Assembly (NCBI GenBank): GCA_020439555.1
Contig: JAGQSN010000049.1
Coordinates: forward strand, 1,183 to 42,479
DNA: 41,297 nucleotides
DNA from: Acidimicrobiales bacterium
Lineage (GTDB): Bacteria; Actinomycetota; Acidimicrobiia; Acidimicrobiales; Iamiaceae
Reading direction: 5' to 3'
A program made the translations under genes and the position numbers. The notes under the pieces are model-generated. The model made no database searches, was not told the DNA's origin, and was given only the letters and a program-made list of their open reading frames with translations. The stretch's first letter is position 1; the number at the start of each line of letters is the position of its first letter. Below, piece after piece: positions 3,805 to 34,394 of this stretch.

Positions 3805-3954
3805 GTGCCACCGGTTCGGGTGGGAGGTACGGGCCTTCGAGACGGGTGCAGTACGCTGCACGTCCGGTCTCCCGGCCGACCCGAAGCACTTCGAGACTAG
3901 TGCCGGTCGGTTGGTCGACTTTGAACCCGCCGCCCTTTCCGGAGGAACCACTGC

Positions 3955-4710
3955 ATGACGTCCTCACCCGCGACAACGTTCGAGGACGTCCTTGCAGAGG
4001 TGGCTGACGTCGAAGGTTGGATGACCGACGACCAGGCGCGAAAGCTCTGGAACGCGGCCAGGTCCGTGCCCGAGAACGGTCGGATCGTCGAGATCGGTTC
4101 GTTTCGAGGCCGTTCCCTGATCGTGCTCGCGTCCGCGGCAACGCGAGGGGTGGAGATCGTGTCGATCGACCCCCACGCCGGCAACGACAGGGGGCCACAG
4201 GAGATCGAAGGGTTCGTGGACCAGGCGGTGGAGGACCACGACGTGTTCAACCGCAACCTCTCCGAAGCCGGGGTCGCCGACCGGGTCACCCATCTTCGCA
4301 AGTTCTCCGACGATGCCCTCGGGGACGTCACCGGCCCGATCGACGTCCTCTACATCGACGGTGCCCACCGATTCGCACCCGCCCGATCCGACATCGTCAA
4401 GTGGGGTGCGAAGGTCGCCGACGGCGGCGATCTCCTCATCCACGATTCCTTCTCCTCCGTCGGAGTCACCCTCGCGCTGGTGACGACGTTGTTCTTCGGC
4501 TCCGACTTCCGGTACGTGGGCCGGGCACAGTCGATGACCCACTATCGACGCCATCGCATGGGTCCGCGTGAGCGGCTGCGCAACGGTCTTCGTCAGCTCG
4601 CCGAATTGCCCTGGTTCGCGAGGAACGTCCTCATCAAGGTGCTGATCGTCGCGAAACTCGGTTCTCTGACGCGGTTCCTCGGCCACGACGAGCCGACGTG
4701 GCCCTACTGA
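3955..4710 (+). CDS. Class I SAM-dependent methyltransferase
   Basis: Predicted S-adenosylmethionine-dependent methyltransferase of 251 residues, of the kind found in polysaccharide clusters (Methyltransf_24-like). Motif I is IVEIGSFRGRS (about 44-53), the acidic residue that binds the SAM ribose is in IVSIDPH (D72), and the motif around LYIDGAHRF (about 135) carries a likely metal or substrate aspartate. A C-terminal basic and hydrophobic segment (RNGLRQLAEL onward) may sit on the membrane. A GGAGGA ribosome site (3941-3946) lies 8 nt before the ATG. The GT2 gene follows after 10 bp, so the two are probably co-transcribed and the methyl acceptor may be the glycan or its lipid carrier; that link is inferred. 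Confidence 0.85.
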   Translation: MTSSPATTFEDVLAEVADVEGWMTDDQARKLWNAARSVPENGRIVEIGSFRGRSLIVLASAATRGVEIVSIDPHAGNDRGPQEIEGFVDQAVEDHDVFNRNLSEAGVADRVTHLRKFSDDALGDVTGPIDVLYIDGAHRFAPARSDIVKWGAKVADGGDLLIHDSFSSVGVTLALVTTLFFGSDFRYVGRAQSMTHYRRHRMGPRERLRNGLRQLAELPWFARNVLIKVLIVAKLGSLTRFLGHDEPTWPY

Positions 4711-4720
4711 ACCCTCAGCC

Positions 4721-5425
4721 ATGAAATCCTTGACGATCCTCATGCCCGTCTACAACGAACGGGCGACGTTGAGAACGGCGCTGGACCGCCTGCTCGCGGT
4801 CGAGATGCCCGTCCCCACCGAGATCCTCGTCGTCGACGACGGATCCACCGACGGCTGCACGTCGACGATCTCGGATCTGGTGGACTCCGGCGCTGTCCGC
4901 CTGCTCACCCAGGAACAGAACCAGGGCAAGGGTTCTGCGTTGCGTCGGGGGATCAGTGAGGCGGACGGTGAGCTCCTGACGATCCTGGACGCCGATCTGG
5001 AGTACGACCCGCGGGACTTTCCGGCGTTGCTGGCTCCGATCCTCGCCGGGGACGCCGAGGTCGTCTACGGAGCGAGGAGCTACGGCGGCCACGCGGCCTA
5101 CTCCTTCTGGTTCGTGATGGGCAACAAGATGCTCGCCCTCTGGGCCTCCTTCCTCTTCGACGCGTGGTTGACCGACATCGAGACCTGCCTGAAGGTCGCA
5201 CCGACCTCCACGTGGAAAGCGGTCGACCTCCAGTCCAACGGCTTCGGGATCGAGGCCGAGTTGACGGGGAAGCTCCTGGCACGGCGTGAGCGAATCTTCG
5301 AGGTGCCGATCCGTTACCGGGCGAGAGGCCGCGAGGAGGGGAAGAAGATCCTGTGGACAGACGGCGTGGCCGCGCTCTGGATCCTCCTCAGGATCAGGAT
5401 CCGGGGTAACCGGCCATCCCGCTGA
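4721..5425 (+). CDS. GT2-family glycosyltransferase, dolichol-phosphate-sugar synthase type
   Basis: Inverting GT-A glycosyltransferase of 234 residues. It has the N-terminal fold MPVYNERATL, the nucleotide-binding VVDDGSTDG (D39, D40), NQGKGSALRRG, and a DAD metal site (D90-A-D92 in TILDADLEYDP). The later GARSYGG and the QSNGFGIEAEL region are typical of enzymes that load hexoses on polyprenyl phosphate or transfer to lipid acceptors. No membrane anchor domain follows the catalytic core, but the C-terminus (ALWILLRIRIRG) is hydrophobic and basic. It lies 10 bp after the methyltransferase gene with no obvious ribosome site, so it probably depends on translation of its neighbour. It is a distant paralog of the second GT2 at 9135. 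Confidence 0.87.
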   Translation: MKSLTILMPVYNERATLRTALDRLLAVEMPVPTEILVVDDGSTDGCTSTISDLVDSGAVRLLTQEQNQGKGSALRRGISEADGELLTILDADLEYDPRDFPALLAPILAGDAEVVYGARSYGGHAAYSFWFVMGNKMLALWASFLFDAWLTDIETCLKVAPTSTWKAVDLQSNGFGIEAELTGKLLARRERIFEVPIRYRARGREEGKKILWTDGVAALWILLRIRIRGNRPSR

Positions 5426-9067: not shown

Positions 9068-9121
9068 GGAGGGGCTGCTACGGACCGGTGACGACGAGCC
9101 GGTGCGGTCGAAGGCCTCTGG

Positions 9122-9127
9122 TACCCT
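9122..9127 (+). promoter_or_regulatory. Predicted -10 box (TACCCT) of a leaderless transcript
   Basis: TACCCT is followed by 7 nt (GCCGCCC) and the GTG at 9135. No Shine-Dalgarno sequence precedes this GTG, which supports a leaderless start over the in-frame GTG at 9102. The box lies 55 bp from the divergent TAAGCT box of the neighbouring gene. Confidence 0.55.
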
Positions 9128-9134
9128 GCCGCCC

Positions 9135-9848
9135 GTGTCCAGCCTGGTCGTCGTACCCACCTATCAGGAGGCTGAGAACATCGAGGCGTTCCTGAGGGCG
9201 GTCCGGAACGCCGTTCCGGACTTCGACGTGCTCGTCGTGGACGACGGAAGCCCGGACGGAACAGGGGAGCTGGCCGAGAAGGTCGCTGCCGACATCGGTC
9301 AGATCTCGGTGCTGCACCGGGCTGGCAAGGCCGGACTCGGATCGGCATATCGGGCCGGATTCGGAAGGGCGTTGGCCGAGGGATACGACCTCGTCGTCCA
9401 GATGGACTGCGACCTGTCACACGATCCCGCAGCGATCCCCTCCCTGCTGGAGCGCATCTCGGACGGTGCCGACTGCGTCATCGGCAGCAGGTACGTCCCC
9501 GGCGGTTCGACACCCCATTGGCCTTGGCGTCGACGGGTTCTCAGCCGGTACGGCAACAGGTACACCTCAGCGGTGCTGAAGCTCGGCATCAGTGACGCAA
9601 CCTCCGGATACAGGGCTTACCGGGCGTCCACGCTCGAAACGATCGACGTCGCGTCGACGGAGTCGAACGGCTACGTGTTCATGAGCGAGATCGCTCACCG
9701 GATGGTCCACGCGGGCATGCGCATCGACGAGGTACCGATCACGTTCCTGGACCGCCAGGCCGGTCACTCGAAGATGTCGGGACGGATCATCGTCGAGTCG
9801 ATGTTCAGGGTGACCCTGACCGGGATCCGGAACTCCTGGAGCCGGTGA
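9135..9848 (+). CDS. Polyprenol-phosphate mannose synthase-like GT2
   Basis: GT-A glycosyltransferase of 237 residues close to DPM1/Ppm1-type synthases, which move mannose from GDP-mannose to polyprenyl phosphate at the cytoplasmic face. It shows VVVPTYQEAENI, VVDDGSPDGTG (D36, D37), GLGSAYRAGF, and the hallmark metal site QMDCDLSHDP (D91, D93). Further landmarks are GSRYVPGG, DATSGYRAYR and the late FLDRQAGHSKMS segment characteristic of the family. It lacks the C-terminal membrane domain of some homologs. The start at 9135 is set by the leaderless-type promoter. Its stop overlaps the start of the following GT-C gene by 4 bp, strongly linking donor synthesis to sugar transfer. The exact sugar is inferred from family similarity. 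Confidence 0.9.
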   Translation: MSSLVVVPTYQEAENIEAFLRAVRNAVPDFDVLVVDDGSPDGTGELAEKVAADIGQISVLHRAGKAGLGSAYRAGFGRALAEGYDLVVQMDCDLSHDPAAIPSLLERISDGADCVIGSRYVPGGSTPHWPWRRRVLSRYGNRYTSAVLKLGISDATSGYRAYRASTLETIDVASTESNGYVFMSEIAHRMVHAGMRIDEVPITFLDRQAGHSKMSGRIIVESMFRVTLTGIRNSWSR

Positions 9849-11158
9849 CCCGCCTCTTCGCGGGGACCTTCCGCCGCCTCGTCTGGGTCGCCGCTGTCCT
9901 GGGATTGGCGGTTCGCGCGTGGTGGACGGCCTGGGCCACCCGGACCCCGACCGGACTGTTCGACCCCGCCCGCTATCTGGGCTTCGGGGACCGGATCGCC
10001 GACGGTCTCGGTTACGTCGAGTTCACCGGCCATCCGACCGCCTACTACCCGCCCGGCTACCCGTACTTCGTCGGGATACTCACCTGGTTGTCCCGTCCGT
10101 TCACCCACGACCCGACCCGGATCGTGGCGGCGGTCCAGGTGCTGCTCGGGACGGCGACGGTCCTGCTCGTGGCATTCGTCGCCCGGCGTCTGGGAGGGCG
10201 CGGAGCGGGTGTCGTGGCGGCGTTCGCGTACGCCCTGTACCCGAACCTCGTCATGCACTCGGGGGTGCTGCTGGGCGAGACGCTGAACATCTTCCTGATG
10301 ATGTCGTTCCTGGCCGTCGTCGTCCGGCGGCCCCTGTCGGAGGACCGTTCCACGGCGGAGCTGGTCGGGATCGGGGTTCTGCTCGCTCTGGCGCTCCTGG
10401 TACGGCCCGTCAGCGGAGCGCTCCTGGTGGCGCTGATACTGGCGTGGTGGGTGGCCAGGCGTGATCTGGGCGAGGTGTTGCGCCGGACGGGGTTGGTCCT
10501 CGTCGGCGTCGCGCTGTGCCTGACTCCGTGGATCGTTCGCAACGCTGTTCGAATGCACGGCTTCGTGCCGATGAGCACCAACACGGGGGACAACCTGTGC
10601 ATCGGATATCAGCCCGATGCGAACGGCGCCTTCGCATTCGACGACCATTGCGCGATCGGAGATCCGTTCCGAGGACCGGCGTCGGAGATCGCCACGGACA
10701 AGGCCAAGACCAGGTACGCGCTCCACCAGATTCGTCGCGATCCAGGCCGGCTGCCGTGGCTGCTGTGGCGTCGTACCTACTTCACCTGGTTCCGCGACGG
10801 CGATCACGATGCGGTGAGCGCAGCTCAGGACTACTACACGGTCGCCTGGATGGCACCCGCCACCAACGACCGCCTCGAGCGCGTCGCGGACCTCTACTAC
10901 TGGTTGGTCGGCTCGGTCGGGGTCGCCGGGTTGGCGCTGTTGGCATGGCGGCGCCGGGCCGACGGCCTGCTGATCGTCGGGTCCTTCGTCGTCACGGCAG
11001 GCCTGCCGCTGCTCTTCTTCGGGGAGTCGCGCTTCAAGGTGCCGGCGATCCCCCTGCTGATCGTGTCGGGCGCGGTAGCCGCGTCCGTCGCGGTCGGATC
11101 GGCGGTCAGTTCGATGAGGACCGATCGCTCCGAGCGTCGAGAACAGCCCGTGGGATGA
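9845..11158 (+). CDS. GT-C / PMT-like membrane glycosyltransferase
   Basis: Polytopic membrane protein of 437 residues with a GT-C layout. Helix 1 (about 11-30) is followed by an acidic loop with FDPARYLGFGDRIADG (D40, D49) and the TAYYPPGYPYF motif (about 66-75) seen in PMT/ArnT-like enzymes. About ten hydrophobic segments follow, with an external loop around 230-330 holding TNTGDNLCIGYQPDANG. The GTG start sits inside the stop codon of the polyprenol-phosphate synthase gene, so the two are translated together, and this enzyme is the likely user of that lipid-linked sugar. The 3' end overlaps the convergent FAD gene by 53 bp. The acceptor could be protein or glycan and cannot be told from sequence. 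Confidence 0.85.
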   Translation: MTRLFAGTFRRLVWVAAVLGLAVRAWWTAWATRTPTGLFDPARYLGFGDRIADGLGYVEFTGHPTAYYPPGYPYFVGILTWLSRPFTHDPTRIVAAVQVLLGTATVLLVAFVARRLGGRGAGVVAAFAYALYPNLVMHSGVLLGETLNIFLMMSFLAVVVRRPLSEDRSTAELVGIGVLLALALLVRPVSGALLVALILAWWVARRDLGEVLRRTGLVLVGVALCLTPWIVRNAVRMHGFVPMSTNTGDNLCIGYQPDANGAFAFDDHCAIGDPFRGPASEIATDKAKTRYALHQIRRDPGRLPWLLWRRTYFTWFRDGDHDAVSAAQDYYTVAWMAPATNDRLERVADLYYWLVGSVGVAGLALLAWRRRADGLLIVGSFVVTAGLPLLFFGESRFKVPAIPLLIVSGAVAASVAVGSAVSSMRTDRSERREQPVG

Positions 11159-12680
11159 CGGGTGCGTCCCGGCCGGTGCCGTGGGACCCGGCGGGCCGGT
11201 CCTTCGGGGTGGGGGAGACCTGTTCCTCGTGGTACTCCTCCTCGACGTTCACCTCCCACACGTCGTGGTCGGTGCCTTCGGCGATGTTCTCCACGGTGAG
11301 CATCGCCGTGAACATCGAGTGGTCCTGGTTGTTGTAGCGGAACATGCCGTTGCGACCGACCGGGTGCACGTTCGAGGCCTCCGAGGCGAGCCAGGCCCGG
11401 AGGACGTCGACGTTCGCCCTGTAGCGGTCGTCGTACATCGGGTACGCCTTCGGCTGTCGAACGACGTATCCCTCCTCGATCTCCCCGGCCTTCGCCAGGC
11501 CGAGGTGTTCGAGCTCCTGCTTGGCACGCTGCACGAGGAAGTCGTCATCCGCGTTCCACTCGTCGTCGCCCTCCCACACCGTGTACTCGAGGCCGAGGGT
11601 GTTGTAACCCGGCTTGACCATGTAGGGCGACCAGGACCCGAAGTTCTGGATGCGCATCGTCCGCACGTTCAGGTCGTGGATGTACAGCCAGTTGTCGTCG
11701 AAGGTGACGAGGTTCTCGGGCAGCACCAGAGCGACGATCATGTAGTCGCGGTAACGCAGGTCGGCGGCAGCCGCCAGCACCTCCCCCGGGGGAGGCGGAT
11801 CCATCGCCGCCAGTAGTTCGGAGATCGGCATCGACGAGATCACGTGGGTCGCCGGGTGGACCGTCTCCACGCCGTCGGCATCACGGGCGACGACTTCCGT
11901 GGCGACGCCGTTCGCGTGGCGGACCTTCGTCACGGTCGTCTCGAGCGAGATCGTCGATCCCTGCTTCTCGACCTTCTCGAGGCAGACCTCCCACATCATC
12001 CCGGGTCCGTACTTCGGGTACTGGAACTCCTCGATGAGTGACGTGATCTCCTTCTGGTTCCTGTTCGGCAGAAGGGCGTTCTTGATCGCGTTGCCGAGCG
12101 TCAGTCCCTTGACCCGTTGCGCCGCCCAGTCCGAAGGCATGTCGGATACGGGCACACCCCAGAGCTTCTCGGTGTATGTCTTGAAGAAGGTGCGGTACAG
12201 GCGCCATCCGAAGCGGGCAACCAGCCATCCCTCGTAGTTGGACTGGTCCTTGGGGGGAGCGATCCTGGAGCGGGCGTAGGACGCAACGCATGCGACAGCC
12301 TCGACCGGACCCAGGTTGCGAAGCGCGTTGGCGGCCTTCAACGGGTAGTCGTAGTACTTGCCCTCGTAGAAGATGCGGCTCTTGCGGGGCCGCATGAGGA
12401 ACTCCTCGTCGGGGAGGATCTCGTGCCAGAGGTCCTCGACGGCCTGCACCTTCGTGAAGAACCTGTGGCCGCCGATGTCGAAGCGCCAACCGTCGCGCTG
12501 GGCGGTACGCGAGATGCCACCGACCTGCGAGTCGGCTTCGAGGATCGTGGAGGAGATCCCGTACTTGTGGAACTGGAAAGCGGCGGTCAGGCCTGCTGGG
12601 CCGGCGCCGATGACCACGATCTGTTCGGCATCGTTCCCACGCGGCGAGTCGGTGCGGGTCTCCGAGGGTGATTCGGACAT
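11106..12680 (-). CDS. FAD-dependent oxidoreductase, UDP-galactopyranose mutase/HemY-like
   Basis: Flavoprotein of 524 residues. The N-terminal dinucleotide fold is VVIGAGPAGLTAAFQF, then ILEADSQVGGISRT and GWRFDIGGHRFFTK, a combination seen in polysaccharide-cluster oxidoreductases related to UDP-galactopyranose mutase and protoporphyrinogen oxidase. KTYTEKLWGVP and GPGMMWEVCLEKVE follow, and the C-terminal FAD-contacting region contains GRNGMFRYNNQDHSMFTAM. A role in sugar ring isomerisation or oxidation fits the locus but is not proven, and the sequence is longer than a typical mutase. ATG 12680 is preferred over an in-frame start at 12803 that would run into the divergent acyltransferase gene. 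The last 35 residues are polar and overlap the convergent GT-C gene. Confidence 0.85.
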   Translation of the reverse strand: MSESPSETRTDSPRGNDAEQIVVIGAGPAGLTAAFQFHKYGISSTILEADSQVGGISRTAQRDGWRFDIGGHRFFTKVQAVEDLWHEILPDEEFLMRPRKSRIFYEGKYYDYPLKAANALRNLGPVEAVACVASYARSRIAPPKDQSNYEGWLVARFGWRLYRTFFKTYTEKLWGVPVSDMPSDWAAQRVKGLTLGNAIKNALLPNRNQKEITSLIEEFQYPKYGPGMMWEVCLEKVEKQGSTISLETTVTKVRHANGVATEVVARDADGVETVHPATHVISSMPISELLAAMDPPPPGEVLAAAADLRYRDYMIVALVLPENLVTFDDNWLYIHDLNVRTMRIQNFGSWSPYMVKPGYNTLGLEYTVWEGDDEWNADDDFLVQRAKQELEHLGLAKAGEIEEGYVVRQPKAYPMYDDRYRANVDVLRAWLASEASNVHPVGRNGMFRYNNQDHSMFTAMLTVENIAEGTDHDVWEVNVEEEYHEEQVSPTPKDRPAGSHGTGRDAPVIPRAVLDARSDRSSSN

Positions 12681-12781
12681 GCTCGGGGGTCCATCCTGGA
12701 TTCGGCGGCGTGACAGACTCGAACCATGGATGTGCCACGGAGAAGCATCGATGTCTCCGGTCGTGGCCCGGAGGGCGGTTC

Positions 12782-14056
12782 GTGACGGTCGCCGTGGGTG
12801 CACGGGACCGCAGCAAAGCTATCCGATCCGCTTCGCCCGACCCGCACTTCGGAGGGTTCGAATCCCTGCGCGCCGTCGCAGCGACGATGGTGCTGCTGCA
12901 CCACGCCGGGTCGCTCACCGGAGGGCGCCTCGGACGCCTGTCGGACCTGGTCGCGGTGTTCGACGGTGGAGTAGCCGTGTTCTTCGTGCTGTCGGGTTTC
13001 CTGCTCTACCGACCGATGGTCAGGCGCAGCATCGAGGGAGTCGAACAGCCCCGGTGGAGGGACTTCTGGTGGCGGCGTGTCCTGCGGATCGTCCCTGCCT
13101 ACTGGCTGGCTCTCAGCGTGCTGTGGGCCGTCGGTGCCTTCGACCTGGGCGAACAGTGGTGGCGCTACTACTTCTTCCTCCAGATCTACCGGGTCGACAC
13201 GATCCTCGGTGGGATCGTGCCTGCCTGGAGCCTCTGCACGGAGCTGTCCTTCTACCTGTTGCTGCCGCTCTTCGCCGCCGCGGTCGCCCGTGCGGCGGCG
13301 GGACTTCCGGCGGAGCGTCGACGGGTCCTCCATCTCGCCGCGTGCGCCACCCTCTGGGCGTCCGGCTTCGCCTTCAGGCGTCTCTTCGACACTGTCTGGA
13401 GCGGTCGCCGGGGCCTGGCCTTCAACTGGCTGCCCACCAATCTCGACCTGTTCGCCGGCGGGATGCTCCTGGCTGTGCTGTCGGTCGTGTGGGAGCCGGG
13501 ATCGGACCGCCGTGACCGCCTGGACCGCGTTGCGACACCGGTGTGGCCGTGGTGGGTCGCGGCCGGTGCCCTTTTCGCCTGGTACGCATTCCGCGTGGGA
13601 CCGACCACGTTCGAGGCCGGCTACAGCGGCTGGTACTGGCAACAGCGACAGTTGGTCCTGGCCGTCTTCACCGTGCTCGTCCTCGTGCCGATGGTCTTCG
13701 GTGACCAGACGGTCGGTCTCGCGCGGCGAGCCTGGTCCTACAGGCCGATCGTCTGGCTGGGAACCGTTTCCTACGGCCTGTACCTGTGGCACCTCGATCT
13801 GATGGAACTGGCGGTCGAGCACGGTTGGATGCGGATTGAAGGGGCCGCGACCGGGGCGGTTTGGCGGGCACCGAGCAGGCTCGCCGAGGCGGACTGGTAC
13901 CTCCGCTTCGATCCGTACGTGACACTCGCGGTGTTGGCCGGTATCGGGATGTTGGCCGGCCTCGCGTGTGCTGCGACCAGTTGGTACGGACTCGAACGAC
14001 CCCTGCAGCGCTTCCGCGGCGCACTCAGGTCGGGCAGATCACCAGTCCGCTCATGA
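12782..14056 (+). CDS. Membrane acyltransferase, acyltransferase-3 family
   Basis: Integral-membrane O-acyltransferase of 424 residues, of the OafA/acyltransferase-3 type that adds acetyl or other acyl groups to surface glycans. The diagnostic N-terminal motif FESLRAVAATMVLLHH (catalytic-type His at 40-41) is followed by VAVFFVLSGFLLYRP, WWRRVLRIVPAYW and WSLCTELSFYLLLP. A late LGTVSYGLYLWHLDLM segment and about ten hydrophobic helices complete the fold. GTG 12782 is chosen because GGAGGG (12770-12775) lies 6 nt upstream; longer frames would overlap the divergent FAD gene. The stop overlaps the ATG of the next gene (ATGA), so the acyltransferase and the following GT-C are one operon. Confidence 0.92.
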   Translation: MTVAVGARDRSKAIRSASPDPHFGGFESLRAVAATMVLLHHAGSLTGGRLGRLSDLVAVFDGGVAVFFVLSGFLLYRPMVRRSIEGVEQPRWRDFWWRRVLRIVPAYWLALSVLWAVGAFDLGEQWWRYYFFLQIYRVDTILGGIVPAWSLCTELSFYLLLPLFAAAVARAAAGLPAERRRVLHLAACATLWASGFAFRRLFDTVWSGRRGLAFNWLPTNLDLFAGGMLLAVLSVVWEPGSDRRDRLDRVATPVWPWWVAAGALFAWYAFRVGPTTFEAGYSGWYWQQRQLVLAVFTVLVLVPMVFGDQTVGLARRAWSYRPIVWLGTVSYGLYLWHLDLMELAVEHGWMRIEGAATGAVWRAPSRLAEADWYLRFDPYVTLAVLAGIGMLAGLACAATSWYGLERPLQRFRGALRSGRSPVRS

Positions 14057-16017
14057 CGTCGTCGATTCGCAGGGTCCGGTCGTTGCTCTTGTCGCGCTAC
14101 TACTTGGGGGCGTTGGTCCTCGGAGCGGGTTGCGTCGCAGTGGCGAGTCGGCATCTCGTCTACCCGTACCTCTCCTGGAACCGGGACGAGCCCGTGTACC
14201 TGTGGCAGGCGGACCTGCTCAGGAGCGGTCAACTCACCTCGACCGACGGCGGCTTTCCGGCCTTGTTCCAACCTTGGTTGAGTGCTCATCACGACGGTCG
14301 CTTCTTCAGCCAGTACCCGCTCGGCTGGCCGTCCGCCATCGCGGTCGGGGGAGCCGTCGGATGGCAGGACCTGACCCTGGTCATCGCGAGCGTCCTCGCC
14401 GTCCTCGGCGCCTACGCGCTGACGACCGAGGTCACTCGGCGCAGGGAGGTCGCAGCGGTGACCGCGACCCTGTTCCTGTGCTCGCCGATCTTCGCGGTCC
14501 AGGGAGGGGTGTTCCTCACCTACCTGTTCGCGACCGGACTCGGCTGTTGCTTCGCTGCCGGATTGCTGCGCGGTGTCCGTCTGCCTTCGAAGTCCGCGCT
14601 GTTCGCTTCCGGGGCATGCCTCGGCTTGCTCGTCGCCACGAGAACCTTCGATGCCGTCGTCTGGGCCGTGGCCGTGGGGGGCTACATCGCCCTCGTCGAG
14701 CGGCACCGCTGGCGAGAACTGATGCGCCTCCTGCCCCCGTTCCTCGCCGGTGTCGTACCGCTGGTGGCGCTGCAACTGCTCCACAACTGGTCGACGACCG
14801 GCAGCCCCACCCAGTTCGCCATCACCGTCGCGGACCCGCTGGACCGGTTCGGGTTCGGGGACCGTCGCCTGATGCCGAGGCTGGACCCCGTCGACTACAC
14901 GCCGGGCGTGGCGGCCAAAGGAACTCTCAAGCACCTCTTCTTCCTGCCGTGGTTCCTCGTCGGGGCACATGTCGGCGGCCTCGTCGCGATCCTGGGGGCC
15001 TGGTGGGAGAGACGACGAGCCGGAACAGGTCTGCTCGTCGTGCTGTGTCTGGCGTTTCCGATCGCCTACTTCCCCTTCTGGGGAATCCACATCTCGTCGT
15101 TGACGACCCGCATCAGCGGGCCGATCTACTACATCCCCGCATACGTCCCGATCTGCGCACTGCTCTCCCTGGGGCTGGTGGCGATCGCCAGGAGGCGCCC
15201 GGCGGCGCTGCTCGTGACCATCGCTGCGATCGTCACCGTCACCGTGCCGGTAGCGGTCGGTCGACTCGGTCTGAACCGGCAGCTCAGCCGGGTTCAGAAC
15301 GCGTGGGCTCGAACCGCTGAGGAGATCCCGGACGGCTCGATCGTCGCCGTCTCTCCGTCCCCGTACCTCCTGTATCTCGCTCCCGAGGGCATCTCGCGGC
15401 CGGACCGGCCGGGCAGGTTGACCTACGTGACGGACGAGTCCCCGACGCTCGTCGAGTTCCTGGAGCGGAGTCGGCGCCGCGCCTTCGTCCTTCGACCGAC
15501 CGTCCCAGCCGGCGAGCTGGCCCCGAGCGAACACACTCGGCCGTTCGGTGTCGAGGCCGTGCCCTTGGAAGTCGTGTCCGGTCCGACTCTCGACCTGGAT
15601 GTGAAGGCGGTGTCTCCCGCCACCGGCGTGATGGTCGTGGACGTGACGGTCGACGAGACGCGCCGTTGGTCTGCACCGGTGCGAAGGGTCCGAGCAGGGG
15701 AGTCGACGACCGTCCAGGTGCTCATGGGGTCGAACAGCCGTCTCTCCGGGCGAGCCGGCGTGGCCATCGGCGACGCTCCCGCGACCGTGGACGTGACCGT
15801 CGGTTTCGGGCGAACCGCGACAGCCGCGCGATCCGCACCTCGGGTCAGGTACCGGGTCCTCCTCGACGGCGGCGACATGCTCCGCGCTCTGTCCCAGGGG
15901 CGCACCTATCGCCCGGTCGAAGCGGCATTGACGAAGGGCGAGCTTCGCTGGACCGATGGCGTCCCATCCGAGGACGTCGAGTTCGACATCAGCCAGAAGG
16001 TCTCCGCCGGCGGTTGA
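14053..16017 (+). CDS. GT-C type membrane glycosyltransferase with C-terminal extracytoplasmic domain
   Basis: Protein of 654 residues with about ten membrane helices up to roughly residue 410. The first external loop contains SWNRDEPVYLWQADLL (D45, E46) and QYPLGWPSA, matching the acidic catalytic loop of ArnT-like GT-C enzymes. From about 420 the chain is soluble and beta-rich (SPYLLYLAPEG, VDVTVDETRRWS), presumably outside the cell. The start is the ATG inside the acyltransferase stop codon; upstream in-frame sequence belongs to the acyltransferase gene. The end overlaps the convergent AftD-like gene by 29 bp. It probably works on the same glycan that the acyltransferase decorates. No substrate can be named. 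Confidence 0.83.
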   Translation: MTSSIRRVRSLLLSRYYLGALVLGAGCVAVASRHLVYPYLSWNRDEPVYLWQADLLRSGQLTSTDGGFPALFQPWLSAHHDGRFFSQYPLGWPSAIAVGGAVGWQDLTLVIASVLAVLGAYALTTEVTRRREVAAVTATLFLCSPIFAVQGGVFLTYLFATGLGCCFAAGLLRGVRLPSKSALFASGACLGLLVATRTFDAVVWAVAVGGYIALVERHRWRELMRLLPPFLAGVVPLVALQLLHNWSTTGSPTQFAITVADPLDRFGFGDRRLMPRLDPVDYTPGVAAKGTLKHLFFLPWFLVGAHVGGLVAILGAWWERRRAGTGLLVVLCLAFPIAYFPFWGIHISSLTTRISGPIYYIPAYVPICALLSLGLVAIARRRPAALLVTIAAIVTVTVPVAVGRLGLNRQLSRVQNAWARTAEEIPDGSIVAVSPSPYLLYLAPEGISRPDRPGRLTYVTDESPTLVEFLERSRRRAFVLRPTVPAGELAPSEHTRPFGVEAVPLEVVSGPTLDLDVKAVSPATGVMVVDVTVDETRRWSAPVRRVRAGESTTVQVLMGSNSRLSGRAGVAIGDAPATVDVTVGFGRTATAARSAPRVRYRVLLDGGDMLRALSQGRTYRPVEAALTKGELRWTDGVPSEDVEFDISQKVSAGG

Positions 16018-19000
16018 GCAGATCGGGAACGGCCGCTGCGACGACCACTCCGAGCGCGAGCCATCCGAGTTCGGGGCGGTGACCGAACCGCGCAACGAGC
16101 AACGTGACCGGCGCCAGGACTGCGGCGGCCCACGCAACGGCAGGCCGCCTCGACACGACGAATGCGAGGCATCCGGCGACGAATCCGATCCAGGCACGGC
16201 TGACCAGCCCTACGAACACTGCCGTCGCCACGGCCGCGACGAGCGCACTGGTCCAGGTCACGGAGCGGGGAGCGTCGCGGAGACCGATGAATGCAGGTGC
16301 ATCGGATGGGACCGGCATCTTTTCGTCCGGGGAGGTTCGCAGCAGTATCAGCAGGGAGAGCACCACCATCGCAGCCGTCGTGACGAGGCCCCCCACGACC
16401 GTCCGCTGAGGTGTCCACGTGACCGTGATGTGCAGGCGTCCAGCCGATGCGGGAGTGATCAACCAACCGTTCGCATAGCCGTCCACGACGGTCCGCGGAC
16501 CAGCAGAACCACCGTCCACCTGGATCTTCCAGCCACGGTTGGAGCTCTGGCCGAGGACGAACCAGAAGGGCCGCGTGCCTGCGTCGACGGTCGCTCGGAC
16601 CTCGGTCATGCCGGTGGTGGACGACGTCACCGACGCGCCGATGTCGCTTCCGTCAGCGCCCGGGACCTTCGTGACGGCCTCGTCGTCGGAGCCGTCGGAA
16701 CGGAGCCGGAGCGCGTCGACGTTCCACCCGGTGGAGGAGCCGATCGCGGAGCGGAGCCGGTGCGTACCACGGGCGAGGGCCACGGATCCGCAGGACGTCA
16801 TGGTCGCGGTACCGGTCCGGTCGACGGGGGCGACCCGGACGGCGATGCCCTGCCCGTCCACCTCGAGGAGATCGGAACGGCAGGCGCTCCGGGGCGATCC
16901 GGTACCGCGTGTGTGCCAGCCGGTGCCTTCGATCTCCGCTATCGACACGGGCAGAGGCGAGTCGGTGCCTCCCGTCCCGTCAGCACTTCGCGGGTACGTG
17001 GCGTCGAAGACCACCCTGATCCGTTCCGCCGTCACGGGTCGTTCGAAGGGCACCTCGACCGTCGTGACGTGGCCTGCGGCCGAACTCTCCTTGGGCAACG
17101 GCACGGAACGGCTCGCAACCTTCCGCCCGTCGACGAGAACTGTCACGTGCTTCGGGAGCGAATGACGACCATCCGCGACCACGGCGAGGCGCAGAGCGTC
17201 GACGCTGTGACGAGGCACGCCGGTGAGGTCGATCCAGGAACCAGCGCCGGTCCCGAAGGCCGCTGTCCAGGCCGTGGAGCGGTCCCCGTCGAGGACCCTC
17301 GACGCACGCGAACCTGGCGAACCCTGCAACCTGCTCGAGGAGGTGGCCCGCACGGTGTCGTCGGTGCCGAAGAGGGTGTCCACCAGGTCGTCGGGCGCCG
17401 AGTCCGACACCCGAATGGTTCCGGACAAGCTGAAGGTGCGGCGGGAGGGGAGTGCGAAGGTCCGATCGAGGAGCCGCTCCTCGTCCTGGCGGGTCCAGTC
17501 GTCGGCCGAGCGTCGAAGCCGTGTGAGGACGACGTCGAGCGGCAGGGACGAGCTTCGTGCACCCGCGCGGCCCAGGAGGTCCGACGGGAGGCGAACCGTC
17601 TCGGTGACCGTGAGATCGGCGATCCTCAACTCGGCGATCCCGACGGCGTTGGCGAGTGACGGGTCGAAAGGTGGGGTGCTGACGCCGGTCAACTCGACAT
17701 CGATCCTGTTGGTCGTCCGAGCCGGAAAGGTGACGACCTGTCCCGTCCTGGTGAGGGAGCGACCGTCGAGGGTCACGTCGATCGCGGGACCGTTCGAGGT
17801 GCGGATCCTGACCTTGGTGAGCACCCTGTCCCGAGGACCGTCCTGGGGCTGGACGATCGTCAGCCGGTCGATGCGTCGAGGCCGTTGAAGGGTGACCGTG
17901 AGGTGGTTGCCGGTCGGGTCGGCTCCACCGATACGCCAGGAGCTCTCGACGCTTCCGTCGAGAGCGGCCGTCGGTCTGTCGGCCGGTCGAGCAGCCCCTC
18001 CGCTGTCGGTGGCCGTGACGGTCGCACCGAACTGCTCCACGACGGACCGGTCTGCGTCGGTCTCGTTCGGATAGGAGTGGAGCCGGCTGTCGTAACCGGT
18101 CGGCTCGACGATCACCTCACCGGCTCTTTCCGTCGGACCCCTGGTGTCGCGCAACGAGTAGAACCACGTCTGGATCCGCCGCCGGTTCGAGTCGGTGAGC
18201 AACAGGTGCGGCGACCGTCCCAACACATCGTCGAACTGGGCGTTCGTCAGTGCCGCGGACCCGACGACCAGACGTCGACCGTCGACGACGCCAGCAGCCG
18301 CTGCGTCCACGATCCCGTCGGCGTCTCCGCCGAGCAGGATCGGCCCGTCGGCCGAGGCGACCCGCACGATCGGCTGGGGCTGTCGAACCGAGAGGACCGC
18401 AACCGGCGGAATGGCCAAGGTGCGCTCCGGGGAGGTGGGTGACAGGTCGCTCGGTACCAACGGGACGAGGGCCGAAGGTGCGCTCGGCCGCGACGGTGAT
18501 CCGAACGCAACCGGTCCGTCGAGGCCGGGAGCCGGTGGTTCCGCGATCGTGCTCCAGACCTGCGACGGCGTGGGAAGCCCGAAACGTTCGATCGCCAGGT
18601 CCGAACGGACGAGAACGTCGCCCACGCCGAGCAGCCTCGCCACCGGTGCGATACTCGACGGGTCGAGTACGCCGTTCTGGAGGCGTCGGTCCAGTGCGTC
18701 GAGCAGGAGCGCGGATTCGCTGGAGCCTTGTGGGAGCACTTCCCGGGCGATGAACGGCCTGTCCAGCAGCAGAGGGGCTATCGGTTCGATGGCGTTCCCC
18801 CACCTGTACGCCGCGAAGTTCGCTCCTGGTAGAGCCAGCACCCTGGTGCCCTCGCCCCGACCGTCCAGGTAGCGGGTCGCGTCCTTCCAATAGCCGGGAA
18901 GTTCCTGTGGGCGTTCGGCCGGCGGTGAGAGCATCCCAACCTTGAGGACCGGTGAGAGTCCGGCGAGAGCAGCCAGGCAGACGACCGACGCGAAGGCCGC

Positions 19001-20182
19001 CCGGATGCGCATGGGCATCGCTCGGACTGCAGCGGAGACCGCCAATGCCATGCCCAGCACGACGAGAGGAACGATGCGCGGTGCGTTGCGGAACGCGAGG
19101 CCGGCCGAGGACGACTCGGTGAACCAACGGAACGCTCGGCCGTAGAGGCTCGGGTGGTCGTAGGGCCATGCTCCGACGGCGACGACGGCGGCTGCAACCA
19201 TGGCGAGTGCCACGCCGCGCCCCCGCCAGCGGGCGATCGACAGGGCGGCAAGGGCGATTGCGGGCACCACGAGTGACGCCAGGACGACGAGGTCATTGGT
19301 GTCGTAGTAGGGCGACTGGACGACCGCCGGGCCGAGTCGGTCTCCGCCGTAGAAGAACCAGTTCCCGAGACCCCTCAGGACGTCGTCCGGGCTGGATCTG
19401 GACGAAACGGTCCGCAGATTCTCCGTCACCGCGAGGATGTCCATTCCGTACGCCGACTGGACCCGGAGGGCCGCTATCCACGCTGCGCACATCGGGACGG
19501 TGACGGCGGCGATGCGGACTGCGGTCCCGGCCGCGCGTCGGGCATTGCCGCGGACGGCGTCGGCGACGATCAGGACGCACGGACCGAGACCGACGAGCAG
19601 CAGGGTCGGCGCGTTGACCCCTGCAACGGTGAACACGACGAGGGCGAAGGCTGCGGGGTGTCTCCAGCCGCCTCGGTGGAGCGCCCTCCGGGTCAGTTCG
19701 AACAGCCACGGGAGGCCGGCCCAGGGCAGGAGGAGGACCGACATCTGCGCTGTGAACGCGAACTGGTACGGCGTCGACGCGTATACGAACGCGGCTGCGA
19801 GCGCAGCGGCACGACCGTGGCCGAGCGAACGGACGAGCCAGCGGACACCCATCGCGGCGGCGAAGGTGATCGTTCCGAGCCAGAGACGTTGAGCGATCCA
19901 GTCCGGTACTCGGATCAGGTCGAAGAACCAGAACCAGGGACCCATCGGCCACAGGTATCCCAGGTGCTGATGCGGGACCGTTCCGGCTCCGACTCCTGGG
20001 TCCCAGAGGCTGAGCGCCTCCCGGAGGAACCCCGAAGGAGCTACGTAGAGAGCTTGCTTGCTGTCCGACGCGAGGCGTCCTGGGGCCGAGAGGAGGAACG
20101 GGAGGTAGGCGACCACTACCAGGGCGACGGCGTCCCACTGAGGTCTGAGGGAGGGCCGGCGCCGGGCCACTAGGGTTGCCAT
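15989..20182 (-). CDS. AftD-like arabinofuranosyltransferase, copy A
   Basis: Giant membrane protein of 1397 residues in the AftD family (DUF3367), which in mycobacteria adds alpha-(1->3)-arabinofuranose branches from decaprenyl-phospho-arabinose to arabinan. The N-terminal GT-C core (about 18-415) contains LSAPGRLASDSK (D40, the family acidic residue), REALSLWDPGVGAGTV and GYLWPMGPWFWFFDL. A large external region follows, with two discoidin-like carbohydrate-binding modules: AALDGSVESSW (about 739-749) and VLDGDRSTAWT (about 963-973). A conserved FVLGQSSNRGWK / DGYANGWLITP block (about 1208-1245) and about four C-terminal helices close it. ATG 20182 is favoured: TACCAT (20192-20197, minus strand) lies 9 nt upstream. 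The family call is strong; true sugar and acceptor here are unknown. Confidence 0.9.
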   Translation of the reverse strand: MATLVARRRPSLRPQWDAVALVVVAYLPFLLSAPGRLASDSKQALYVAPSGFLREALSLWDPGVGAGTVPHQHLGYLWPMGPWFWFFDLIRVPDWIAQRLWLGTITFAAAMGVRWLVRSLGHGRAAALAAAFVYASTPYQFAFTAQMSVLLLPWAGLPWLFELTRRALHRGGWRHPAAFALVVFTVAGVNAPTLLLVGLGPCVLIVADAVRGNARRAAGTAVRIAAVTVPMCAAWIAALRVQSAYGMDILAVTENLRTVSSRSSPDDVLRGLGNWFFYGGDRLGPAVVQSPYYDTNDLVVLASLVVPAIALAALSIARWRGRGVALAMVAAAVVAVGAWPYDHPSLYGRAFRWFTESSSAGLAFRNAPRIVPLVVLGMALAVSAAVRAMPMRIRAAFASVVCLAALAGLSPVLKVGMLSPPAERPQELPGYWKDATRYLDGRGEGTRVLALPGANFAAYRWGNAIEPIAPLLLDRPFIAREVLPQGSSESALLLDALDRRLQNGVLDPSSIAPVARLLGVGDVLVRSDLAIERFGLPTPSQVWSTIAEPPAPGLDGPVAFGSPSRPSAPSALVPLVPSDLSPTSPERTLAIPPVAVLSVRQPQPIVRVASADGPILLGGDADGIVDAAAAGVVDGRRLVVGSAALTNAQFDDVLGRSPHLLLTDSNRRRIQTWFYSLRDTRGPTERAGEVIVEPTGYDSRLHSYPNETDADRSVVEQFGATVTATDSGGAARPADRPTAALDGSVESSWRIGGADPTGNHLTVTLQRPRRIDRLTIVQPQDGPRDRVLTKVRIRTSNGPAIDVTLDGRSLTRTGQVVTFPARTTNRIDVELTGVSTPPFDPSLANAVGIAELRIADLTVTETVRLPSDLLGRAGARSSSLPLDVVLTRLRRSADDWTRQDEERLLDRTFALPSRRTFSLSGTIRVSDSAPDDLVDTLFGTDDTVRATSSSRLQGSPGSRASRVLDGDRSTAWTAAFGTGAGSWIDLTGVPRHSVDALRLAVVADGRHSLPKHVTVLVDGRKVASRSVPLPKESSAAGHVTTVEVPFERPVTAERIRVVFDATYPRSADGTGGTDSPLPVSIAEIEGTGWHTRGTGSPRSACRSDLLEVDGQGIAVRVAPVDRTGTATMTSCGSVALARGTHRLRSAIGSSTGWNVDALRLRSDGSDDEAVTKVPGADGSDIGASVTSSTTGMTEVRATVDAGTRPFWFVLGQSSNRGWKIQVDGGSAGPRTVVDGYANGWLITPASAGRLHITVTWTPQRTVVGGLVTTAAMVVLSLLILLRTSPDEKMPVPSDAPAFIGLRDAPRSVTWTSALVAAVATAVFVGLVSRAWIGFVAGCLAFVVSRRPAVAWAAAVLAPVTLLVARFGHRPELGWLALGVVVAAAVPDLLNRRRRPSG

Positions 20183-20191
20183 GGCATCCCG

Positions 20192-20197
20192 ATGGTA
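20192..20197 (-). promoter_or_regulatory. Candidate -10 box (TACCAT) before AftD copy A
   Basis: On the minus strand TACCAT is followed by 9 nt and the ATG at 20182, leaving almost no leader and no ribosome site. The 80-bp space to the divergent AftD copy B must hold both promoters; I see no comparable box for copy B. Confidence 0.35.
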
Positions 20198-20262
20198 ACG
20201 AGGCCCCTGGTCGCCTCCGGGCCACGCGGTGTCGAGACCGCCCGGCCGTGCCACTGGACCCG

Positions 20263-23200
20263 ATGACAGACGTCCCTCTCCGTCGAGACGAGCCCGAAGA
20301 CGATCTCGTCGAGCGCGACGGCGGGCGGCTACCGCATCCGTCGGGGTCCTGGTGGCCGCTCGTCCCGGTGGCGCTCCTCGCGTACGTGCCGTTCCTGGCG
20401 ACGAGACCCGGGTTGATCAGCGCCGACACGAAGTCGTACCTGTACCTCGATCCCGGGCGCCTGCTGTCCCGTGCTTGGTCCATGTGGGACCCGAACGTCG
20501 GTCTCGGCACTGTGTCGCACCAGACCATCGGGTACCTCTGGCCGATGGGACCATGGTTCTGGTTCTTCGATCTGATCGGGGTGCCCGACTGGGTGGCGCA
20601 ACGACTGTGGTGGGGGACGCTCGTGTTCGCGGCGACATCAGGTGCTGCGTACCTGTTCCGACGCTTCGAGTTGCCTGCCGTCGCCTTGTGGCCTGCCGCC
20701 GTTGCCTTCGGGCTGAGTCCTTATGCGGTCGCTTACCTGGGGCGGCTGTCAGGGGTGCTCCTTCCGGCGGTCGGCCTGCCCTGGCTGCTCGCGTTCACGA
20801 TCCAAGCGACGAGATCGAAGGGATGGCGGTATCCGGCTTTGTTCGCCCTGACCGTCACGACCGTCGGCAGCGTGAACCTGACGGCACTGGCACTCGTCGG
20901 GATCGGTCCACTGACCTGGATCATCTTCGTCGTGGTCAGCGGCAGGGTCCGGTGGTCGGAGGCACTCGCCGTGGTCGGTCGGATCGGGGCGCTGACCCTG
21001 CCCACGTCGGCCTGGTGGCTGGCGGGCCTGTCGGTTCAGGCGACGAACGGGATCGACATCGTCCGCTACTCGGAGACCGCCGAGGTGGTGGCTCGGACGT
21101 CCATTGCGCTCGAAGTCCTCCGAGGCCTGGGCTACTGGTTCTTCTACGGAGGCGACAAGGTCGAACTCTGGATCGAGCCGAGCTTCCAGTACACGAAACG
21201 CCGGATCATCTACCTGGGGACCTTCGCGTTGCCGTGGTTGGCGATGCTGAGCGGCGCCGTCAGCCGATGGCGGCACCGCACCTACTTCGTGATGCTGCTC
21301 GTCGTCGGTGTGGTCGTGTCGGTCGGGGCGAACCCGTGGCAGGACCCGTCTCCCGTAGGTGCGGCGATCAAGTGGTTCCTCGGCACCGACCGTGGGCTGG
21401 CCTTCCGCAGCCTGCCGAGGGCGGTCCCACTCGTCGCGCTGGCCTCCGCAGCCCTCATCGGCGGCCTCCTTTCCGGACTCCGCGACCGCAAGCCCGTCGT
21501 CGCCCGCGTCTCGGCGGTGGCCGTACTCGTGGCTGCCGTCTTCGGGATGGTGCCCATGTGGCAGCGGTCGATCGTCCAGGACGGCCTGGCGCGAAGCACG
21601 GTCCCCGGATACTGGAAGGAAGCCGCCCGGGTCCTCGATGAGCGCGACGACGGTACCCGGGTGCTGGCGGTTCCCGGCAGCGACTTCGCGTCCTACCGCT
21701 GGGGCAACACGGTTGATCCGATCCTTCCCGGTCTGATGGACCGTCCGTTCGTCGCCCGTGAACTCGTGCCGTACGGGACGCCCCCCTCAGCGGATCTTCT
21801 GAACGACTTCGACCTGCCGATCCAGGAACGGACGCTCCAACCGCAGGCGATCGCCCCCGTCGCACGGCTGATGCGAGTCGGCGACATCCTCGTGCGCAGC
21901 GACCTCCAGTACGAGAGGTACAACCTGGCTCGGCCACGGCTCGTGTGGGAGCTGTTCCGGGACGCTCCCGGCCTCGGCACCCCCATCGAGCTGTCGGGCC
22001 CTTGGGTGAATCAACCGCTCGAACGTCTCCAGATGCACGACGAGGTTTGGTTGAGCAGGGAACTCGGTCTACCCGACCCTCCCGTCGCGGCGATCATCCC
22101 CGTCACCGACAGCAGACCCATCTACGACGTGAAGCCGGCCGACGGTGCCGTCCTGCTGTCGGGTGACGGTGCCGGCATAGTCGATGCTGCGACGGCTCGA
22201 CGGATCGACGGGAACGAACTGATCCGTTACAGCGGAAGCCTCGACGCGGCCGAGATCGAGGCCGAGCTCCGCCGTGGGGCGTCGCTCGTGGTCACCGACA
22301 CGAACCGAAAACGTGGGGAGCGTTGGGGCACCCTGCGGCACACGCGCGGTCAGACGGAGCAGGCGGACGAACCGAAACTGGAGGAGGACCTGACCGACAA
22401 CAGGCTCCCCCGTTTCGAGGGTCGAGGGTCCGACGTCCAGACGGTCACCGTCCAACGTGGGGGCATACGGGCCTTCGCAACCTCCTACGGGAATCCGATC
22501 ACCTTCGTCGCCGACGCTCGCCCAGCGCTGGCCGTCGACGGGAACCCCGACACGCAGTGGGCCACTGCGGCGTTCACGGATGCGCGTGGTGAGCGCCTGG
22601 TACTCGCTCTCGACGAGCCGTTGTCGTTCGATCACCTGACCCTCCAACAACTTCCGGTTTCGCGGACGACGCGTGCGATCACGAAGGTCCGACTCGATTT
22701 CGGTGACGGTCGTCCGCTCGAGGTGTCGCTCGGGAAGGTCTCGCGGACGTCGCCGGGACAGCGCATAGACGTCGGTACGCGTCGGACCTCGAAGGTGACG
22801 ATCACGATCGTCGCGGACTCTCTCGGGAACCCTGTGCTCTACGGCGACGTGGGCCCCGTCGGCTTCGCCGAGGTCCGCCTGGGAGACGATCCACCACACG
22901 TGGACGAGACGGTTCGGATGCCCACGGACCTCGTCGATGCCGTGTCCCGTAGCCGGGGCCGAGCGCGAGCGGCGCGTCTCACCTACGTGCTCACCCGTGT
23001 TCGTCAGGACGCGACCGACCGCACGCGGGACGACGACGAGCGCGCGATGGCTCGGACCTTCCGCGTGCCGGGAGCGAGGGGCTTCACCCTGAAGGGTGTC
23101 GCCCGGATCTCCCCTCGCGCGGATGACGCGGTCATCGATGAACTGCTCGGCACGACCTCCTCGGAACTGGTGAGCGTCGTGTCGAACCATCGGCTCGACG

Positions 23201-24642
23201 GTTCCCGGACCGACCGGGCCAGCGCCGCTCTCGACGGCAACCCGAAGACCGCCTGGACGAGTCGCTTCGTTCGTCCCGCCGGTTCCACGATCACCGTGAC
23301 GACCCGGTCGAAACGATCCTTCGATCGCCTCGACCTTCGGGTGGTGTCGGATCTGGCCCACTCCACGCCGAAGACCGTCGAGGTCGCCGTCGACGGACGC
23401 GTCGTCACGCGGCGGGAGCTACAGAGCATCGAGCCTGGTGCGCTCGGCACGACGACCCGGGTTCCGATCACGTTCCCTTCCACGGAGGGACGCAGACTCA
23501 CCGTCAAGGTCACCGCCGTGCACAAGGTGACATCGTTCGACTGGAACTCGAACGATCCCGTCGCCCATCCGATCGCCATCGCGGAGTTGGGTGTTCCCGG
23601 ACTGCGAGTCGACGCCGCTCCCACGCGCTTCGACGATCGTTGCCGATCGGACATCCTGACGCTCGATGGGAAGCCGCTCCCGGTGAGCATCAGCGGATCG
23701 TCGGTCGATGCCCAGGCGGGGCGTCCTCTCGACGTGAAGCTCTGCGACTCGGACGCTGTTCGCCTCACCGCCGGTGATCACGAACTCGACGCGAGAGCGG
23801 GTGTCGACAACGGACTGGACATCGACCAGCTGGTGATCGACTCGTCGGGCACGGGCGGAGCAGGATCGACCCGGGGCTCCGGCGGTACCACCGACAGCGT
23901 GCCTCGGGTGGAGGTTTCCCACGAAGGCCGTGACTCCTCGACGATGAGGATCAGCGGTCTCGAACCCGGTAAGCCGGTGTGGGTGATCCTCGGCCAGAGC
24001 TTCTCCGACGGCTGGAAGGCGACTGTCGAGGGTGGACCTGACCTGGGTGCCCCGAAACTCGTGGACGGGTTCGCGAACGGCTGGTTTGTCACACCCGAGA
24101 GCAGCTCGATCGTCGTACGGACGGAGTTCGTGCCACAGAAGCGCGTCGACATCGCTCTCGTACTGTCGGCTCTCGCGCTCGTCGTGACCCTGTTCCTCGC
24201 GCTGCGTCGTCCTTCGGTTGCCGGGCCGGTGGACGCGGCCGATGGCTCCGTGGCGCTCGACGCGGGGCAGCCCACCGGACTGCGTACCGGGGTCGTCGTC
24301 GCCATCGCCACTGCGGCGGTCGTGTTCCTCGTGTCCACGCCGATCGTCGCCGTGGGGATCGGTGTCGCCGCAGGCCTGGCGTCGGTGCGATCAGGCTGGC
24401 GACGCTTCATGCACCTGCTCCCGGCCGCCCTTCTCATGGCATCGGTGGCCGTGGCGCTATGGATCGACGTCCGTGACGACGTCCCGGCCGGTATCGAGTG
24501 GGTGACCACCATCGAACCCGCACATCCCGTTGCGATGGCAGCGGTCTGTGCCCTGGCGGCTGATCAGGTCGTCGACCTGCTGTGGCGGCGTCGCCGGCGC
24601 CGGGACGGAAGCGAAGACTCCCGGCTTCCGGAGGAGGAGTGA
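20263..24642 (+). CDS. AftD-like arabinofuranosyltransferase, copy B
   Basis: Second AftD-family protein, 1459 residues, divergent from copy A. An acidic cytosolic tail of about 29 residues precedes the GT-C core. Landmarks match copy A: ATRPGLISADTK (D55), SRAWSMWDPNVGLGTV, GYLWPMGPWFWFFDL, YWFFYGGD, GLAFRSLPRAVPLV, PGYWKEAARVLDER, RVLAVPGSDFASYRWGN. Two discoidin-like modules appear (AVDGNPDTQWA and ALDGNPKTAWTS), then VILGQSFSDGWKATVEGG / DGFANGWFVTP and C-terminal helices. It is likely an outer-face furanosyltransferase acting on a related but distinct acceptor site. ATG 20263 is preferred; GTG 20248 is an alternative, and neither has a good ribosome site. An upstream in-frame start at 20176 would overlap copy A. 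Confidence 0.9.
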   Translation: MTDVPLRRDEPEDDLVERDGGRLPHPSGSWWPLVPVALLAYVPFLATRPGLISADTKSYLYLDPGRLLSRAWSMWDPNVGLGTVSHQTIGYLWPMGPWFWFFDLIGVPDWVAQRLWWGTLVFAATSGAAYLFRRFELPAVALWPAAVAFGLSPYAVAYLGRLSGVLLPAVGLPWLLAFTIQATRSKGWRYPALFALTVTTVGSVNLTALALVGIGPLTWIIFVVVSGRVRWSEALAVVGRIGALTLPTSAWWLAGLSVQATNGIDIVRYSETAEVVARTSIALEVLRGLGYWFFYGGDKVELWIEPSFQYTKRRIIYLGTFALPWLAMLSGAVSRWRHRTYFVMLLVVGVVVSVGANPWQDPSPVGAAIKWFLGTDRGLAFRSLPRAVPLVALASAALIGGLLSGLRDRKPVVARVSAVAVLVAAVFGMVPMWQRSIVQDGLARSTVPGYWKEAARVLDERDDGTRVLAVPGSDFASYRWGNTVDPILPGLMDRPFVARELVPYGTPPSADLLNDFDLPIQERTLQPQAIAPVARLMRVGDILVRSDLQYERYNLARPRLVWELFRDAPGLGTPIELSGPWVNQPLERLQMHDEVWLSRELGLPDPPVAAIIPVTDSRPIYDVKPADGAVLLSGDGAGIVDAATARRIDGNELIRYSGSLDAAEIEAELRRGASLVVTDTNRKRGERWGTLRHTRGQTEQADEPKLEEDLTDNRLPRFEGRGSDVQTVTVQRGGIRAFATSYGNPITFVADARPALAVDGNPDTQWATAAFTDARGERLVLALDEPLSFDHLTLQQLPVSRTTRAITKVRLDFGDGRPLEVSLGKVSRTSPGQRIDVGTRRTSKVTITIVADSLGNPVLYGDVGPVGFAEVRLGDDPPHVDETVRMPTDLVDAVSRSRGRARAARLTYVLTRVRQDATDRTRDDDERAMARTFRVPGARGFTLKGVARISPRADDAVIDELLGTTSSELVSVVSNHRLDGSRTDRASAALDGNPKTAWTSRFVRPAGSTITVTTRSKRSFDRLDLRVVSDLAHSTPKTVEVAVDGRVVTRRELQSIEPGALGTTTRVPITFPSTEGRRLTVKVTAVHKVTSFDWNSNDPVAHPIAIAELGVPGLRVDAAPTRFDDRCRSDILTLDGKPLPVSISGSSVDAQAGRPLDVKLCDSDAVRLTAGDHELDARAGVDNGLDIDQLVIDSSGTGGAGSTRGSGGTTDSVPRVEVSHEGRDSSTMRISGLEPGKPVWVILGQSFSDGWKATVEGGPDLGAPKLVDGFANGWFVTPESSSIVVRTEFVPQKRVDIALVLSALALVVTLFLALRRPSVAGPVDAADGSVALDAGQPTGLRTGVVVAIATAAVVFLVSTPIVAVGIGVAAGLASVRSGWRRFMHLLPAALLMASVAVALWIDVRDDVPAGIEWVTTIEPAHPVAMAAVCALAADQVVDLLWRRRRRRDGSEDSRLPEEE

Positions 24643-32431: not shown

Positions 32432-32458
32432 GTCATTTCCTCAATGTTCGGGTTGGAC

Positions 32459-32494
32459 CCGTTGCGGGACCGGCTGCGACCGGTCCCGCAACGG
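32459..32494. terminator. Strong intercistronic hairpin between binding protein and permease genes
   Basis: A perfect 15-bp stem (32459-32473 with 32480-32494) with a 6-nt loop CTGCGA lies 18 nt below the stop of the second binding-protein gene. No T-run follows on the minus strand. Such hairpins commonly stabilise the upstream binding-protein message and lower transport-subunit expression; partial termination is the other option. Confidence 0.65.
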
Positions 32495-32511
32495 TGAGTC
32501 CAGGGTGGGTG

Positions 32512-34269: not shown

Positions 34270-34334
34270 TCTGTCCCCTTGGGTTTGACGTTCGATCGAG
34301 CGCCGCGTCACCGCGGGCACATCGAGTGACCGAA

Positions 34335-34340: not shown

Positions 34341-34394
34341 GCGGTGTCACGCGCGGCGTTCAGTCCGTCGCTCTGGCGAGCGTTCCAGCGGGGT

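Follow-up and report, generated by a model that had tools for sequence, protein, structure and literature searches.

AftD is best known from tuberculosis-type bacteria, and the Mycobacteriales enzyme (Rv0236c / NCgl2757) is represented in the PDB by entries 6w98, 6wbx and 6wby. The linkage formed by this reference enzyme is itself debated, because an alpha-1,3 activity was assigned to mycobacterial AftD at first and an alpha-1,5 activity later (PMC6034362, PMC12041299). In mycobacteria, it is established that phosphoribose is transferred from PRPP to polyprenyl phosphate, dephosphorylated, and then epimerised by DprE1 and DprE2 (PMC11127046). A second group of described systems, the three-component pentofuranose systems (Citrobacter O1/O2, GT136), combines a polyprenyl-phosphoribose synthase with a dedicated MATE flippase and a GT-C transferase (PMC11127046).

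The window analysed here is a stretch of 41,297 nucleotides from an Acidimicrobiales MAG (3.2 Mb in 457 contigs, 77% complete), whose named relatives, judged from protein matches, are likewise Acidimicrobiales MAGs. It contains two large open reading frames, one on the minus strand (15989-20254) and one on the plus strand (20176-24642). The codon-position GC of both is typical of the window's genes and supports coding. Read from the first ATG, AftD-A occupies 15989..20182 on the minus strand (1397 aa; ATG at 20182, ORF open to 20254) and AftD-B occupies 20263..24642 on the plus strand (1459 aa; ATG at 20263, ORF open from 20176). An earlier note on this DNA had described two AftD-family proteins of 1397 and 1459 residues lying head to head across a gap of 80 bp, and these coordinates and lengths proved exact. 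The divergent spacer between the start codons (20183..20262) holds a TACCAT -10-like box on the minus strand at 20192-20197, and a TANNAT box is found 9-12 nt ahead of the AftD-A start in 5/5 head-to-head loci. Our preferred reading, to which we give a probability of roughly 0.58, is that AftD-A and AftD-B are paralogous, catalytically competent AftD-type GT-C transferases in an Acidimicrobiales envelope-glycan locus, and that they add a DPA-derived pentofuranose.

Placement of both proteins in the DUF3367/AftD family was borne out by Pfam, in which they match GT-C_AftD (PF11847) far over the cut-off of 26 bits (AftD-A, 270.5 bits; AftD-B, 298.8 bits). Behind this domain, CBM_AftD (PF24607) scores 32.1 and 45.6 bits in the two copies (cut-off 27), and both also carry an F5_F8_type_C domain, in keeping with the discoidin-like modules previously read in each. 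The GYLWPMGPWFWFFDL segment and the C-terminal NGW block, likewise described before, were seen in both proteins. In AftD-A, the GT-C_AftD domain covers ORF residues 53-693 (18176..20098, minus strand) and includes D64 and E278, while the discoidin-like and CBM_AftD modules span residues 757-1112 (16919..17986, minus strand). In AftD-B, the corresponding domain covers ORF residues 71-734 (20386..22377, plus strand) with D84 and E300, and the CBM_AftD and discoidin-like modules span residues 782-1117 (22519..23526, plus strand). For both proteins, the PDB matches returned by phmmer were the mycobacterial AftD entries 6w98, 6wbx and 6wby only. The GT-C domain of AftD-A was modelled with AlphaFold2 on 59 window and locus sequences (pLDDT 91, pTM 0.91). 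This model had AftD 6w98 as its best PDB match (Foldseek E 8e-24, TMq 0.75), and superposed on it with a VIA Z of 36.0 (2.8 Å, 614 residues), compared to 21.4 for the next non-AftD structure.

Residue conservation was assessed in a 112-sequence alignment comprising Mycobacteriales-like AftD, the A clade described below, and other Acidimicrobiia. Residues conserved at >=85% in all three groups are, in ORF numbering (A/B), D64/D84, K66/K86, Q96/Q116, R123/R143, N214/N234, E278/E300, R294/R316, W299/W321, R389/R411, D552/D576 and D688/D708. In GT-CA enzymes, the tip of juxtamembrane helix 1 carries a shared, essential Asp (PMC12041299), and D64/D84 are, judging from their position, the likely counterparts of this residue. 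Because the invariant residues are kept in both AftD-A and AftD-B, both are expected to be catalytically active. The pair is like Mycobacteriales AftD in its GT-C_AftD domain, its CBM_AftD and discoidin-like modules, its invariant acidic and aromatic residues, and its overall fold, but differs from it in sequence (~23% identity), in the presence of two old paralogs side by side, and in its neighbours.

The left half of the window is a glycan locus. A GT4 gene (2644..3951, minus strand; PF00534) is the commonest AftD-B neighbour in the class, with homologs in 29/64 AftD loci. It is followed on the plus strand by genes for a methyltransferase (3955..4710; PF13578), a GT2 enzyme with a sub-threshold AglJ match (GT2a, 4721..5425; PF00535), a second GT2 enzyme that is like polyprenyl-phospho-sugar synthases and has sub-threshold AglJ/PpgS matches (GT2b, 9102..9848; PF00535; homologs in 19/64 AftD loci), and a PMT_2-type GT-C transferase (9845..11158; PF13231). 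An acyltransferase-3 (12668..14056, plus strand; PF01757), with homologs in 21/64 AftD loci, may O-acylate the glycan. A second GT-C enzyme with an SWNRDE motif (13861..16017, plus strand) has no Pfam match and a weak match to the LA_3751 family; its model has an ArnT-like fold at medium confidence (pLDDT 67), and it adjoins AftD-A in five loci (L060, L068, L069, L102 and L141). The minus-strand gene at 11106..12803 encodes a PRK07208-type FAD oxidoreductase (NF005548, 772 bits; homologs in 8/64 AftD loci). It was considered as a UDP-galactopyranose mutase and rejected, the match being weak, N-terminal and limited to the surroundings of the FAD motif. The right half of the window, which encodes an oligopeptide ABC transporter and CoA and lipid enzymes, appears unrelated.

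The polyprenyl-phospho-pentose pathway that the earlier note had proposed searching for was found elsewhere in the same genome. Contig C171 encodes DprE2 (309.6 bits, cut-off 250) and DPPR synthase (369 bits, cut-off 207), and its end carries DprE1 model positions 3-104. Model positions 263-449 are on contig C345 (247 bits), in a fragment that aligns to M. tuberculosis DprE1 (E 4e-51), so that DprE1 is split over two contigs with its middle part missing. NF053785 served as the DprE1 marker in place of Pfam ALO (PF04030), which was dropped as too unspecific. Intact DprE2-DPPRS-DprE1 sets, with DprE1 over the cut-off, are present in two genomes of the same family (G110 and G114). Both a family match and a donor pathway, the genomic points on which the earlier proposal had been made to depend, were thus found. 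AftD and DPPR synthase co-occur strongly in the class, both when counted by genome with kinship not taken into account (both/AftD alone/DPPR synthase alone/neither, 72/24/22/129; Fisher p 5.6e-22) and when counted by genus, with no phylogeny correction beyond that level (48/14/13/50; p 1.4e-10). In ten genomes of family f2, AftD lies ~5-30 kb from DPPRS/DprE1. In the genome of the window, separate contigs carry the DPA genes and the AftD pair, and in the related complete genome G110 ~370 kb lie between the two.

The association is incomplete, as DPPR synthase is missing in 14/62 AftD genera and AftD is missing in 13 genera with DPPR synthase. The latter fits an alternative in which the Acidimicrobiia AftD-like subfamily uses another polyprenyl-phospho-sugar, e.g. 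a hexose or aminosugar supplied by the neighbouring GT2 enzymes, and the DPA genes feed other GT-C enzymes. More directly, DPPRS and DprE1 were not found in three genomes of 96-100% completeness that encode both paralogs (G199, which has the head-to-head pair, G072 and G048), or in the AftD-bearing genomes of L107, L111, L112 and L113. The AftD loci with homologs of GT2b include DPPRS-negative ones. Because of these genomes, arabinose is not proven as the donor, and a non-arabinose donor is given real weight. However, the strong co-occurrence, the linkage of AftD to DPPRS/DprE1 in family f2, and the conserved residues common to true AftD all argue against this alternative, which we consider rather unlikely on balance. 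For the arabinan-like or furanose-bearing envelope glycan suggested earlier, the family, the pair, the setting and the donor genes therefore stand, while the product stays an inference in view of near-complete genomes that encode both copies and lack the DPA pathway.

Comparative analyses show that the pair is not a peculiarity of the source strain. AftD was detected in 96/247 sampled Acidimicrobiia genomes, of which 49 have one match and 47 have two or three; the figure of 47 is a maximum, since a gene that is split is counted twice. With about half of AftD-bearing genomes having at least two AftD matches, the pair recurs within the class. In the phylum as a whole, a single copy was seen in each of 14 genomes with AftD at 725-954 bits, taken as Mycobacteriales-like from score; the earlier statement of a single copy per genome thus holds for these and fails in the window's own class. 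A FastTree phylogeny built on the GT-C domains assigns the copies from the window to two distinct Acidimicrobiia clades (A and B), and the order (G199,(L103,(window,(L102,L105)))) is identical in both, with weak support for the window node (0.23 and 0.46). The pair is head to head in all five of these, and so this arrangement is no freak, being present in four further Acidimicrobiia genomes. The A and B copies of L067, L068 and L069 have a convergent orientation instead. Since the branching order matches in both clades, AftD-A and AftD-B are old paralogs inherited together. A duplication in the source strain alone is rejected in view of this match, the separate clades, and the identity of only 39% over 1299 aa between the two proteins. 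The conservation of the A/B pairing, whether divergent or convergent, would also suit a non-catalytic role for one copy, which would regulate its partner or serve as its acceptor-binding subunit, but this is improbable, as both clades retain all the invariant residues, among them the juxtamembrane Asp and the Glu, and the same-family genomes G110 and G114 have no A-clade copy.

The machinery of mycobacterial arabinogalactan was sought with models that all matched in a control C. glutamicum genome. Emb (PF04602) was found in 5/247 genomes of the class and not in that of the window, AftA (PF12250) was absent in 17/17 genomes including that of the window, GT87 (AftC) was not found in the genome of the window, and UDP-galactopyranose mutase (Glf; TIGR00031) was over the cut-off in 0/19 genomes. 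The genome of the window is only 77% complete, and relatives of up to 100% completeness agree on the absence of Emb, AftA and Glf. Therefore, although the DPA pathway and AftD are both present, an ordinary mycobacterial-type arabinogalactan wall of which the pair is part is very unlikely, and this reading is rejected. The acceptor, in contrast to that of Mycobacteriales AftD, cannot be mycobacterial galactan, and the earlier view that the locus does not look like a mycobacterial arabinogalactan cluster is borne out. AftD-A and AftD-B share the GT-C fold and, probably, the DPA donor with the EmbA/B/C and AftA/B/C arabinofuranosyltransferases, but belong to different families.

By family, the two proteins are AftD; by logic, the system also appears to resemble the three-component pentofuranose systems (PMC11127046). 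As in those, a polyprenyl-phosphoribose synthase is accompanied by an extracytoplasmic GT-C enzyme with a CBM, these being the two components found in the genome of the window, and by DprE1/E2-type epimerisation, which is optional there. The GT-C family, the number of transferases (two) and the actinobacterial host are different. What is new relative to Mycobacteriales AftD is the presence of two paralogs without Emb, AftA and Glf, and relative to the three-component systems it is the GT-C family.

From these observations, we infer as follows which donor is used, what linkage is formed, what serves as acceptor, and how the two enzymes share the work. The cell would make polyprenyl-phospho-beta-D-arabinofuranose via DPPR synthase, DprE1 and DprE2. 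On the external side of the membrane, AftD-A and AftD-B would take D-Araf (or a related pentofuranose) from the lipid donor and attach it by inversion, thereby decorating or extending a glycan built by the neighbouring GT4, GT2 and GT-C enzymes and held by the discoidin-like CBM modules. The two transferases would most likely form different linkages or act at different acceptor sites.

In the literature collection searched, no report of arabinan or arabinogalactan in Acidimicrobiia was found. More tentatively, and at somewhat less than even odds, members of the class may have an Emb-independent and galactofuranose-independent envelope glycan that bears pentofuranose, with the AftD paralogs as its main pentofuranosyltransferases; it would be an arabinan-type wall system, distinct from the one in mycolic-acid bacteria and from Gram-negative decoration systems. 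With this finding, AftD and the arabinose-donor pathway (DPPRS/DprE1/DprE2) are located in a large actinobacterial class whose members are mostly uncultured, apart from Emb and galactofuranose. It thereby offers a natural setting for asking what AftD does alone, a role that is disputed in mycobacteria between alpha-1,3 branching and alpha-1,5 extension. The prediction that follows is an uncharacterised glycan in the envelope of Acidimicrobiia, which would be within reach of simple sugar analysis.

The ATG of AftD-A, one of the two head-to-head AftD-type GT-C paralogs, is preceded by a TANNAT box at a distance of 9-12 nt in all five head-to-head loci (spacer 20183-20262 in the window). This placement suggests that the AftD-A transcript is leaderless. 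Also encoded in the window are a PRK07208-type FAD oxidoreductase (11106-12803, minus strand), which matches NF005548 (772 bits; named only "hypothetical protein") and has homologs in 8 of 64 AftD loci, and a complete operon for an oligopeptide-type ABC transporter, including genes for two solute-binding proteins (28436-36128, minus strand). When AftD loci were compared, a DppF-like gene was likewise found close to AftD in some other Acidimicrobiales.

A few Acidimicrobiia encode AftD-like proteins far nearer the Mycobacteriales type, at 600-665 bits (loci L152:6325-14406 in genome G149, L003 in G196, and L005 in G012); that of G149 is contained within a 2693-aa ORF. Emb-like proteins are present in another Acidimicrobiia family, f24 (L051, G241:C30; L050, G125:C23; L049, G026:C7), with four consecutive copies in G241. 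Profile searches of this family returned no match above cut-off for AftD or DPPR synthase.

Where M. tuberculosis DprE1 has Cys387, the residue bound by benzothiazinones, alignment places Ala in the own-genome DprE1 piece (contig C345, L054:5079-5648) and Cys in the same-family genome G110 (L057:7250-8710). This natural variation is relevant wherever a DprE1 inhibitor serves as a probe.
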